Assembly (NCBI RefSeq): GCF_027532945.1
Contig: NZ_JAPZTZ010000003.1
Coordinates: 62,001-126,000, forward strand
DNA from: Phreatobacter sp.
GTDB taxonomy: Bacteria; Pseudomonadota; Alphaproteobacteria; Rhizobiales; Phreatobacteraceae
Direction: 5' to 3'
Length of the DNA: 64,000 nucleotides
The notes beneath the pieces were generated by a model. The model had not been told where the DNA came from, searched no databases, and saw nothing but the letters and a program-made list of their open reading frames with translations. Made by a program: the position numbers and the translations under genes. Below are positions 15,927-21,410 of this stretch, piece after piece. The stretch's first letter is position 1, and each line of letters starts with the position of its first letter.

Positions 15927-18374
15927 ATGACCACCGACGCGCTGAAGCCGGCGTCAGGCGACGCGGAACGGGTCCTGACGGCCGAGGAGCTGGAAAAGCT
16001 GTCCTCGGACTCCGAAGGCGGACCGGCGCGGCGGGTTGGCGGCTGGCTCGGCTGGCTGACCGGCTCGGTCGCCTTCCTCATCGCCGCCACGGCGATGTAC
16101 TGGACGCAGTTCTCCATCACCACGACGGTCTATCGCGCCAGCTTCCTGACGCTCTGCCTCGCCCTCATCTTCATCCTCTATCCGCTCGCCAAGACGGGCC
16201 GCGACGGCGCCCCGCAGACGCGGCGTGCCAGCGTCGAGGAAATCGTGGTGGCGCTCATCGCCATCGCCATGCTCGCCTATATCCTGCATCACCCGAACCC
16301 CCGGATCGCGGTGGTGGGGCGCTCGCCCTTCGGCTACGGTCTCGGCTGGGTGCTGATCGCCTGTTTCGCCGCCTATCCGCTGCTTGTCTCCAACCGCTGG
16401 CTGGCGCGGCTCCAGCCGACGGACTGGTTCTTCGCGGCGCTCGGCCTCTATTGCGCCTGGTACCTGTCGACCAATATCGACGAGTTCAAGACCCGCGCCA
16501 TGCAGCCCTCGGCCGAGGAGCTGGTGCTCGGCCTCGCCCTCATGCTCCTCGTGCTGGAGGCGACGCGCCGCACGGTCGGATGGGTGCTACCGGCCATCGC
16601 CGCCGTCTTCCTCATCTACTGCTATGCCGGCACGGGCTGGCTCATCCCCGATGTCTTCGAGCATCGCGGCTTCAGCCTCAACCGCATCATCGGGCAGAAC
16701 TTCCTCACTCTCGAGGGCCTGTTCACGACGCCGCTCGACGTCGCCGCCACCTTCATCATCCTGTTCACGATCTATGGCGCGGTGCTCGACCGCGGCGGCG
16801 CGGGGCGCTTCTTCATCGAATGGGCCTTCGCCCTCTTCGGCAAGAACCCCTCACCCTCCGCTCCCGGCCGGGCCGTGGTCGCGTCCGGTTTCCTGCTCGG
16901 GACCGTCTCGGGCTCGGGCGTTGCCACCACGGTGACCGTCTCGACCCTCGCCTGGCCCATGCTGAAGCGCTCGGGCTACGACCCACAGGTCGCCGGCGGC
17001 ATGCTCTCCGCGGCCGGCATCGGCGCAACGCTGTCGCCGCCGACGCTCGGCGCGGCGGCCTTCATCATCGCCGAATTCCTCGACGTCGATTACCTGCAGA
17101 TCCTCATCTACGCGACGATCCCGACCGTCCTCTACTACGTCTCCTGCTGGCTGATGACGGAGGCCGATTCCCGTCGCCTCGGCGTCGTGCCGGTGCGCAC
17201 CTCGGACGCCTCGGTCTGGGAACTGACCAAGCGCGGCGGCTACCACTTCATCTCGCTTGGGGCAATCGCCGTCTTCCTGGTGATGGGCTTCACCAGTTTC
17301 ATGGCGGTCTACTGGTCGATCGTCGTCGCCTTCGTGCTGTCCATGGTGCGCGAGGACAGCCGGCTGGTGACGCTGGAGGCCTTCGCCGTCGGCTGCGCCG
17401 CGGCGCTCGCCGCCTGGCTCTTCGGCATGAGCGGCTGGCCACAGGGGCTTGGGCTGCAGGAGCTGTTCAACGACCGCATCTCGGTCGCGACCTTCTGGGG
17501 CATTGCGGCGGCGATCGCCGTCTCGGGCGCGCAGAGCCTTGTGGCCATGCGCAGCGGACGACCGGTGCCGGCCGGCGGCACGGGCATGATCGACGCCCTG
17601 CTCGACGGCACACGCTCGACGCTCGGCATCGTCGCGGTCTGCGCCTGCGCCGGCATCATCGTCTCGGTGGTGAACCTCACCGGCCTCGGTCTCACCATTT
17701 CCGGCATCATCATCTCGGCCGGCGGCTCGAACGTGTTCCTGATCCTGCTCATGGCGGCGCTCGCCATGTGGGTGCTCGGCCTCTCCGTGCCGGTGACGGC
17801 GAGCTACATCATCGCTGCGGTCATGCTGGTGCCGGCGCTGATCAAGGTCGGCGTACCGCCGGCCGCCGCCCACATGTTCATGTTCTACTATGCGGTGCTG
17901 GCGGACGTGTCGCCGCCCACCGCTCTCGCCCCCTTCGCGGCCTCTGCCATCACCGGCGGCGAGCCCTTCCGCACGACGATGCAGGCGTGGAAATACACCC
18001 TGCCGGCCTTCATCGTGCCCTTCATGTTCTGCCTGACGCCGGATGGCGCGCAGCTGCTCATGCTGGTGCCGACGGGGACCAACGCGGCGGGCGCGGTGGT
18101 CTACGGCATGCCAGGCACGCTGGCGGCCTGGCTCTCGGTGCTGTGGGTGACGGTGACGGCCTGCCTCGCGCTCGTCGGCTTCTGTGTCGCCTTCGCGGGC
18201 TATGCGCTCGGCCGGGCGAACCATGTCGAGCGGGTGGTGTGCCTCGCCGCCGGCGTTCTGCTGCTGGTGCCGCGGCCCTGGGCAACGGCTTCCGGCCTCG
18301 TCCTCCTCGTCGGCGGCCTGACACTGCACTGGCGGCGCATCGGCAGGGCGGAACCCGCCCTGCCCGCCGGGTGA
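15927..18374 (+). CDS. Fused TRAP transporter permease (4TM/12TM)
   Basis: An 815-residue inner-membrane protein that fuses the small DctQ-like and large DctM-like TRAP subunits, as is usual for TAXI systems. After a hydrophilic N-terminus of about 45 residues there are about four helices, then the 12-helix part. The latter contains GFLLGTVSGSGVATTVTVST, AAGIGATLSPPTLGAAAFII and PVTASYIIAAVMLVPALI, the repeated half-sites for sodium and substrate. YYAVLADVSPPTALAPFAAS is diagnostic. It imports the TAXI ligand using a sodium gradient. Its stop lies three bases from the convergent DUF1508 gene. Confidence 0.93.
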   Translation: MTTDALKPASGDAERVLTAEELEKLSSDSEGGPARRVGGWLGWLTGSVAFLIAATAMYWTQFSITTTVYRASFLTLCLALIFILYPLAKTGRDGAPQTRRASVEEIVVALIAIAMLAYILHHPNPRIAVVGRSPFGYGLGWVLIACFAAYPLLVSNRWLARLQPTDWFFAALGLYCAWYLSTNIDEFKTRAMQPSAEELVLGLALMLLVLEATRRTVGWVLPAIAAVFLIYCYAGTGWLIPDVFEHRGFSLNRIIGQNFLTLEGLFTTPLDVAATFIILFTIYGAVLDRGGAGRFFIEWAFALFGKNPSPSAPGRAVVASGFLLGTVSGSGVATTVTVSTLAWPMLKRSGYDPQVAGGMLSAAGIGATLSPPTLGAAAFIIAEFLDVDYLQILIYATIPTVLYYVSCWLMTEADSRRLGVVPVRTSDASVWELTKRGGYHFISLGAIAVFLVMGFTSFMAVYWSIVVAFVLSMVREDSRLVTLEAFAVGCAAALAAWLFGMSGWPQGLGLQELFNDRISVATFWGIAAAIAVSGAQSLVAMRSGRPVPAGGTGMIDALLDGTRSTLGIVAVCACAGIIVSVVNLTGLGLTISGIIISAGGSNVFLILLMAALAMWVLGLSVPVTASYIIAAVMLVPALIKVGVPPAAAHMFMFYYAVLADVSPPTALAPFAASAITGGEPFRTTMQAWKYTLPAFIVPFMFCLTPDGAQLLMLVPTGTNAAGAVVYGMPGTLAAWLSVLWVTVTACLALVGFCVAFAGYALGRANHVERVVCLAAGVLLLVPRPWATASGLVLLVGGLTLHWRRIGRAEPALPAG

Positions 18375-18377
18375 TCC

Positions 18378-18713
18378 TCAGGCGGCCGTCGTGTCGTCGA
18401 GCTTGGCCTCGGGCGCGTTCTTCTTGACGCTCTCGATGCCGGCATCGCGCGAGGCTTCCGAGGAATAGACCTCGCTCGTGCCGATCACCTGGCCGTTGGT
18501 GGCCTTGAGGTTGAACATCGGGCCGGTCTTGGCCTGCTTGCGCTCATAGCGGCCATCTTCCTTGGCGTTCTTCCTGACGCTCTCGATGCCGGCCAGCGCG
18601 GCTGCCTTGGTGGTGTACATCTCGCTGGACAGGATGACCTGACCGTTCGAGGCCTTCAGCGAGAAATGGAACTGACCGCTCTTGCCCTTGGTCAGCACGA
18701 ATTTGCCTGCCAT
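18378..18713 (-). CDS. DUF1508 (YegP-type) protein with two repeats
   Basis: A 111-residue protein made of two tandem DUF1508 repeats: GQFHFSLKASNGQVILSSEM and, about 48 residues later, GPMFNLKATNGQVIGTSEVY. Each repeat is followed by a helix of the form 'A..GIESV+KNA'. Each unit forms a beta-beta-beta-alpha fold; the function is unknown and often linked to stress. The ATG at 18713 starts MAGKFVLTKGKSGQFHF directly at the domain, with GAGGAT upstream. The longer frame to 18809 would overlap the neighbouring gene and has no family match. Confidence 0.88.
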   Translation of the reverse strand: MAGKFVLTKGKSGQFHFSLKASNGQVILSSEMYTTKAAALAGIESVRKNAKEDGRYERKQAKTGPMFNLKATNGQVIGTSEVYSSEASRDAGIESVKKNAPEAKLDDTTAA

Positions 18714-18805
18714 GCCATCCTCCCTCGGAAACGCGCTCGGGGCGCGAGGCGAGCATAGCGGCACGCTGGGGAAAGCGAGGTGCGGAAGGTCACGGACCCG
18801 GCGCG

Positions 18806-19309
18806 TCACGGCGCCGCGCGGCGCTGCTTTTCGTAGCGCTTGATGGCGCGCTCCCGCTTCAGCCGCGACAGGCGGTCCAGCCAGAAGATCCCCTCAAGCT
18901 GGTCGATCTCGTGCTGGAGCACGACGGCGAGGAAACCGTCGGCCTCGCCCTGCTCCTCCGCGCCGGTGAGCGTCGACCAGGCAAGGCCGATGCGGGCGGG
19001 GCGTTCGACCTCTTCGGAGATGCCGGGCATGGAGACCGAGCCTTCGCGCTCGACCTTCACCTCCGGCGAGGTCCAGAGGATGCGCGGATTGACATAGAGC
19101 CGCATCAGCGCGTCGTCCGCGAGACGGATGGCGACCAGCCGCTGGAAGACGCCGATATGGCAAGCGGCAAGGCCGATGGCCGGTGCGGCGACGACCGTGT
19201 CCATCAGGTCCTGCGCGAGGTCCTTCAGCGCCTCGTCGAAGACCTCGACAGGGTCGGCGCGGCGGCGCAGGCGCGGATCGGGGAACATGACGAGCGGGCG
19301 TGCGGGCAC
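18806..19309 (-). CDS. Peptide-deformylase-like protein lacking two metal ligands
   Basis: A 167-residue member of the peptide deformylase family, which normally removes the formyl group from nascent proteins. All three signature motifs are recognisable but altered. The GxGLAAxQ motif is AIGLAACH (Gln to His51), EGCLS is EGSVS (the metal-ligand Cys is Ser91), and HExxH is HEIDQ (the second His ligand is Gln137). H133 and E134 remain. Two of the three metal ligands are therefore gone, so normal deformylase activity is unlikely. The fold and length are otherwise intact, arguing for a retained, different function rather than decay. A genuine Def is presumably elsewhere. Confidence 0.88.
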   Translation of the reverse strand: MPARPLVMFPDPRLRRRADPVEVFDEALKDLAQDLMDTVVAAPAIGLAACHIGVFQRLVAIRLADDALMRLYVNPRILWTSPEVKVEREGSVSMPGISEEVERPARIGLAWSTLTGAEEQGEADGFLAVVLQHEIDQLEGIFWLDRLSRLKRERAIKRYEKQRRAAP

Positions 19310-19550
19310 AGCGGACCTCCTGCGTTTCGCTCTAGCGAAGCTGACGGCGCGGGAAAAGCCCGTCGGCGGGGCGGCTGCCGCTCTTGCGGGCGGCTGTTGC
19401 CTTCGCCACAGGCAGCCTCAGGAATGATCATCCACAGCATCCGGGCCATGCCCTCAACGGGTTGCAATGGAATGGTCGTTGCATAAGGATGCTCGACCGT
19501 CGGCCCCCCGCGGGCCGTTCTTCCGATCTCCAGCACGAGTGACATTCCAC

Positions 19551-21410
<1,860 letters not shown>

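Follow-up and report, generated by a model that had tools for sequence, protein, structure and literature searches.

A gene of the peptide deformylase (PDF) family with three altered catalytic residues was analysed in a 64,000-nucleotide stretch of DNA from Phreatobacter sp. (order Rhizobiales), which is called the window below. Its active-site state His51-Ser91-His133-Glu134-Gln137 (HSHEQ) was found in 94 of 135 distinct PDF homologues, the other 41 carried the canonical state Q-C-H-E-H, and no mixed state occurred. The protein is tentatively interpreted as an accessory, ribosome-docking PDF, the active site of which may have been rebuilt without cysteine rather than lost.

The open frame was uninterrupted, started with GTG and encoded 167 amino acids:

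18806..19309, minus strand, stop codon included: HSHEQ-type peptide-deformylase paralogue, 167 aa, GTG start, assigned by PF01327, NF009484, AlphaFold2 and fold match

A profile search with Pfam PF01327 matched residues 4-152 of the protein with 134 bits (cut-off 22.8), and the NCBIfam model NF009484 ('peptide deformylase') matched with 239 bits (cut-off 190). Five structural models were calculated with AlphaFold2 from an alignment of 22 sequences (mean pLDDT 93.6, 92.4, 91.9, 81.7 and 72.0). The best model (mean pLDDT 93.6, pTM 0.89) was predicted to have the complete PDF fold. Its residues 2-167 were superimposed on residues 1-166 of the E. coli PDF chain (1bsj) with Z 26.2 and rmsd 1.4 over 165 aligned residues, and all 50 matches listed by Foldseek were PDFs. 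The protein is therefore a member of the PDF family by profile as well as by predicted fold, and of NF009484 by a score above 190 bits. The preliminary description of an intact frame with fold and length kept agrees with these results. Since the structural alignment was offset by one (residue n corresponds to E. coli n-1), His51, Ser91, His133, Glu134 and Gln137 are the equivalents of Gln50, Cys90, His132, Glu133 and His136.

The altered residues are located in the three conserved motifs:

19151..19180, minus strand: motif I, residues 44-53 AIGLAACHIG, with His51 (codon 19157-19159) for E. coli Gln50
19025..19045, minus strand: motif II, residues 89-95 EGSVSMP, with Ser91 (codon 19037-19039) for Cys90
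18890..18916, minus strand: motif III, residues 132-140 QHEIDQLEG, with Gln137 (codon 18899-18901) for His136; His133 and Glu134 are kept

A functional Def is expected to carry Gln in motif I, EGCxS with the ligand Cys in motif II, and HExxH with both His ligands in motif III. At these places the window protein has His51, EGSVS with Ser91, and HEIDQ with Gln137, so that the three substitutions described earlier can be read directly in the motifs. Two of them form an exchange, with E. coli Gln50 replaced by His and His136 by Gln. By substitutions in conserved motifs the protein would fall under the type 3 PDFs, as these are defined in sections of PMC5591237 and PMC12690207.

The canonical def of the source genome was sought and found. 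The genome contained two PF01327 matches, and the second one had the motifs EGCLSIP and QHEIDHLNG and the state Q-C-H-E-H; fmt- and truA-like ORFs (likeness judged by eye) followed it on the same strand. Both PDF types were present in 12/12 genomes of the genus sample, and one or more further PDF homologues were present in all 57 genomes of the order that carried an HSHEQ gene.

Homologues were collected from a scan of GTDB contigs (28 loci), from whole-genome searches of order, class and phylum samples, from stretches of those genomes, and from five plasmid regions. Identical sequences were removed, as were rows in which more than 25 of the 166 model positions were gaps, leaving the 135 distinct rows; the gap filter removed split copies such as those of loci L029 and L129. 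At 90% non-redundancy, 80 HSHEQ and 32 canonical rows remained. Pairwise identity among the HSHEQ rows was 55% in the median and 28% at the lowest, corresponding to a difference of up to 72%. Sixteen positions were invariant in 80/80 HSHEQ rows: G46, H51, N74, P75, E89, G90, S91, R103, G116, H133, E134, Q137, G140, F142, L150 and R152. The five signature positions among them are invariant by definition of the group, yet no row fell outside both groups. Orthologues retaining Cys and His at these places, the finding by which the preliminary description would have been refuted in favour of isolated decay, did not occur.

Most homologues were sampled for their similarity to the family, a procedure that could hide intermediates. 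As a control, the general PF01327 model was applied to 20 genomes and gave 47 matches; the complete rows read were 30 canonical, four HSHEQ and none mixed, and four split or partial copies consisted of pieces with canonical letters only. Three of the four HSHEQ rows of this control belonged to a divergent sub-clade. With the family profile its members scored only 127-145 bits, less than the housekeeping-type Defs, and yet all five residues were present. Each of the plasmid matches of middling similarity that were fetched was likewise either HSHEQ or canonical. The recurrence of the quintet in the 94 homologues, with the canonical set in all others, excludes chance. A sequencing or frame error as source of the substitutions was ruled out by the agreement of independent genomes and records.

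In the order sample, the main HSHEQ group was detected in 51/297 genomes, with a gap in bit scores (at least 209 versus at most 201) as its boundary, and all 51 assignments were checked by sequence. The divergent sub-clade added six genomes of the order, resulting in at least 57/297 genomes and 10 of the 52 families sampled. At E <= 1e-58, the class sample contained the main group in 14/385 genomes, 11 of them outside the order and from eight further families, and the phylum sample in 24/398 genomes, all of the window's order (the share of other classes in this sample was not given). Throughout the ten families of the order sample and the eight further families of the class, the triple change was fixed within the clade. 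The GTDB contig scan, which reaches close relatives only, recovered alphaproteobacterial or unclassified proteobacterial members and one acidobacterial canonical PDF; four of the six nearest records were named Phreatobacter, with 78-84% identity. Named carriers of HSHEQ genes included Sinorhizobium, Ensifer, Rhizobium, Microvirga, Aquabacter, Ferrovibrio, Aminobacter, Tistrella, Mesorhizobium, Acuticoccus and Shinella. In viral_contigs, which was searched with peptide patterns of the HSHEQ clade only, 13 stretches matched and none encoded a relative.

The clade was patchy within families, and a single family occurred in several places of the HSHEQ tree; this combination fits some horizontal spread. 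On plasmids in general, PDF homologues were found on 884 of 72,556 records, including 601 of Klebsiella and 161 of Escherichia. An unusual-looking label or replicon was noted for CP090106.1 (locus L127), a 3.7 Mb record of S. meliloti labelled pSymB, on which lipB, spoVR and prkA surround the HSHEQ gene.

When 60 HSHEQ and 32 canonical sequences were placed in a maximum-likelihood tree, the HSHEQ proteins formed one group (support 99/99; bootstrap not settled). In a quick tree calculated without columns 51, 91, 137 and 142 they still formed one group, with SH-aLRT reduced to 70. A single origin of the clade is therefore the simplest reading and is not proven. Median dN/dS values (NG86, 12 Phreatobacter genomes, 66 pairs each) were 0.27 and 0.26 for the HSHEQ and the canonical genes, respectively; the HSHEQ genes evolve under purifying selection, as def does.

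Broken copies were also found. Two HSHEQ copies on Mesorhizobium plasmids were frame-disrupted (L243, L244) and a third was shortened (L246); in Chelatococcus composti (L029) the copy was split over two frames, either by a true break or by a sequencing error. Such copies show that the gene can be dispensable, and they are what speaks for a functionless, decaying duplicate of def. Against this stand the single active-site state over the 94 distinct sequences, a dN/dS as low as that of def, and the presence of the gene in every genome of the genus sample. For the clade as a whole, isolated decay was ruled out on these grounds, and a functionless duplicate is considered very improbable.

Besides the active site, the part of the protein that would contact the ribosome was compared:

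18815..18865, minus strand: C-terminal helix, residues 149-165, a helix in the predicted model, corresponding to the helix by which E. coli PDF binds the ribosome

According to sections of PMC12690207, E. coli PDF contacts uL22 through L149, K150, R153 and K157, and 23S rRNA through K160 and R163. Among the 80 HSHEQ rows, the equivalents of the uL22 contacts were conserved as L150 (80/80), K/R151 (80/80), R154 (73/80) and K/R158 (80/80). The equivalents of the rRNA contacts were conserved as K/R161 (80/80) and K/R164 (47/80, with 28 rows lacking a residue there). In the same alignment, 7/32 canonical rows were missing most of the C-terminal helix. Judged by the conserved contact residues, the window protein retains the ribosome-binding helix of a functional Def, and a ribosome-binding role is indirectly supported at the level of sequence. 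The groove residues G46, E89-G90 and R103 were invariant among the 80 rows; G46 and E89-G90 are presumed to hold the peptide backbone. The putative docking and substrate-holding parts are thus conserved jointly with the new active site.

Gene context was examined by clustering the ORFs of 92 loci (some genomes were represented twice) together with the window. None of the neighbour clusters listed extended to all families; each was confined to a single family or to a small number of loci, as were mgtE and a MerR gene in Rhizobiaceae. Neighbours were read for 14 and 44 loci; 7/44 gave no result because the gene-choice rule based on GC3 missed the PDF itself, and small genes may be missed in the remainder. 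In Acuticoccus, an aldo/keto reductase gene was located 9 bases upstream of the HSHEQ gene, and in Aminobacter genes for an LLM oxidoreductase and a gamma-glutamyltransferase were located upstream. Four consensus patterns were used to screen upstream regions for stress promoters: two EcfG forms, a sigma32-like and a Fur-like pattern were found in 0/80 HSHEQ regions each, and the sigma32-like pattern in 2/32 regions of the canonical set. A sigma-70-like promoter was not detected in 18300-19700. Neither the gene context nor the upstream patterns discriminate between the explanations considered below.

Immediately downstream of the PDF-like gene in the window, a DUF1508 gene with two repeats was located at 18378-18713 on the minus strand; the longer frame 18378-18809 (minus strand) matched PF07411 with 149 bits. 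The same order of the two genes was repeated in other Phreatobacter loci (L167, L169). A terminator-like hairpin was observed on the plus strand at 18809-18826, within the 3' end of the PDF-like gene (two such sites versus 0.9 expected).

The HSHEQ proteins share fold (Z about 26), length, His133, Glu134, groove and helix with canonical PDFs such as E. coli Def and P. aeruginosa Def (1n5n). They differ from these by His, Ser and Gln in place of the motif I Gln, the motif II Cys and the second His of motif III, and by Phe142 in place of Leu. In a search against the PDB, 1n5n was the best match (E 4e-50, canonical motifs), and none of the matches listed was closer. Type 3 PDFs of archaea, of trypanosomatids, and the accessory ones of S. 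aureus and S. pneumoniae likewise have substitutions in the catalytic motifs, and the bacterial ones are accessory (sections of PMC5591237 and PMC12690207). As described in part of PMC5591237, type 3 PDFs are a heterogeneous class whose C-termini are not conserved in length, whereas the HSHEQ clade has one exact set of residues and a conserved helix. Vibrio cholerae Def2, also described in PMC12690207, resembles the HSHEQ proteins as an accessory, monocistronic second PDF. According to the same sections it has kept its motifs and its activity and has lost R153 of the helix, whereas in the HSHEQ clade the motifs are changed and the helix is kept.

NF009484 (PRK12846.1-5) was the best-scoring model for the main HSHEQ group, with 239, 275 and 264 bits for the three members tested. 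It is named as an ordinary deformylase, and its cut-off was also passed by 7/12 canonical Phreatobacter Defs; the two divergent HSHEQ members tested scored 142 and 122 bits, below the cut-off. This 'equivalog' therefore matches the HSHEQ clade together with some canonical Defs, and automated names do not separate the types. In 142 genomes each, the sub-models NF006670 and NF011189 matched nothing at E <= 1e-40; no control matched either, and the negative result carries no weight. In the plasmid records that were opened and had an annotation of the HSHEQ gene, it was called 'peptide deformylase' in 5/5 cases.

In full-text searches of one open-licence PMC library, no paper on an HSHEQ clade with a fixed quintet and a Gln/His exchange was found. 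The main text of PMC12690207 does not contain 'rhizobi', and nothing on the motif I Gln was found in the available sections of PMC3101196. Degenerate PDFs (type 3) are already known; a fixed-quintet clade with a Gln/His exchange is apparently undescribed in this literature.

That the three new residues are constant, and that Gln and His are exchanged between two active-site positions, suggests a site that was rebuilt and is still in use. The preliminary description had taken the gene for an intact homologue with another job beside the true Def, unable to bind metal for want of two ligands. That the gene is not decayed and is accessory to the true Def is upheld by the clade-fixed change and by the co-present canonical def; the inability to bind metal is not, and the constancy of the new residues suggests rebuilding in place of a simple loss of ligands. 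For a rebuilt site speak the absence of mixed states among the 135 homologues, with identities down to 28%, the quintet of the divergent sub-clade, the single group in the trees, the dN/dS and the helix. Serine is uncommon as a metal ligand, which counts against a rebuilt metal site. Further arguments against are the broken copies, the lack of stress-type promoter patterns in the 80 upstream regions, the fall of the clade support to SH-aLRT 70 without the signature columns, and the Salmonella PDF, in which C90S alone abolishes activity (PMC7683392, in part). Since each HSHEQ-carrying genome of the order has another PDF homologue, activity need not be kept. The main rival, itself rather doubtful, is a non-catalytic, ribosome-bound pseudoenzyme that would bind formyl-Met N-termini without cleaving them and thereby shield them or tune the access of Def, MetAP or exit factors. 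The loss of two of three canonical metal ligands, the retention of the helix and of G46, E89-G90 and R103, and the presence in S. aureus and S. pneumoniae of inactive type 3 PDFs next to active PDFs (sections of PMC12690207) are consistent with it; it is not obvious why a plain binder should keep one and the same His, Ser and Gln, as well as His133 and Glu134, in 94/94 sequences.

A hydrolase with another mechanism or substrate, possibly metal-free, is unlikely. Ser91 would be the nucleophile, His51 or His133 the base, with Glu134 or Gln137 in support, and the substrate another N-blocked peptide or a small amide. The constancy of Ser, both His, Glu and Gln would suit such an enzyme, as would the transport or catabolic genes adjoining the HSHEQ gene in several carriers; no neighbour was conserved across families, though, among the clusters listed, and the kept ribosome-contact residues fit a nascent-chain substrate better. 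An iron site of the 2-His-1-Glu type, in which Glu134 would be a ligand, was also considered and was dropped by reasoning, because residues 133 and 134 of the same helix are unlikely to share one metal.

For the preferred reading, a rebuilt cysteine-free site, a mechanism is likewise proposed tentatively. With somewhat greater reserve, the centre of the PDF fold would have been re-invented by the exchange Gln50->His/His136->Gln together with Cys90->Ser, giving a cysteine-free centre at the ribosome for deformylation proof against oxidation and NO, or for a new N-terminal reaction, conserved across Alphaproteobacteria. The conserved C-terminal helix would dock the protein at the ribosomal exit, and the retained groove (G46, E89-G90, R103) would hold a nascent or free peptide by its N-terminus. 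In the centre, His51 may replace the lost ligand His136, Gln137 may take the carbonyl-binding place of Gln50, Ser91 would stand in the place of Cys90, and Glu134 would remain the acid/base. A centre of this kind would be spared both nitrosylation at Cys90 and the sensitivity to H2O2 that the iron enzyme shows, and the protein could act alongside the housekeeping Def as a deformylase-like hydrolase that is specialised or stress-proof. In the Salmonella PDF, C90 is nitrosylated by NO, and the Fe form is sensitive to H2O2 and the Zn form is not (PMC7683392, in part); a stress-proof back-up enzyme without Cys is therefore plausible as a purpose. Oxidative stress has been speculated to be the purpose of type 3 PDFs generally (sections of PMC12690207).

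Fold-based annotation calls the whole clade 'peptide deformylase' despite three textbook motifs that are altered identically. PDF is essential and a target of antibiotics. If the rebuilt site is active, the clade would be a natural example of active-site residues changing places within a single fold, and its proteins would be cysteine-free deformylases; if not, they would be conserved readers of protein N-termini that probably dock at the ribosome.
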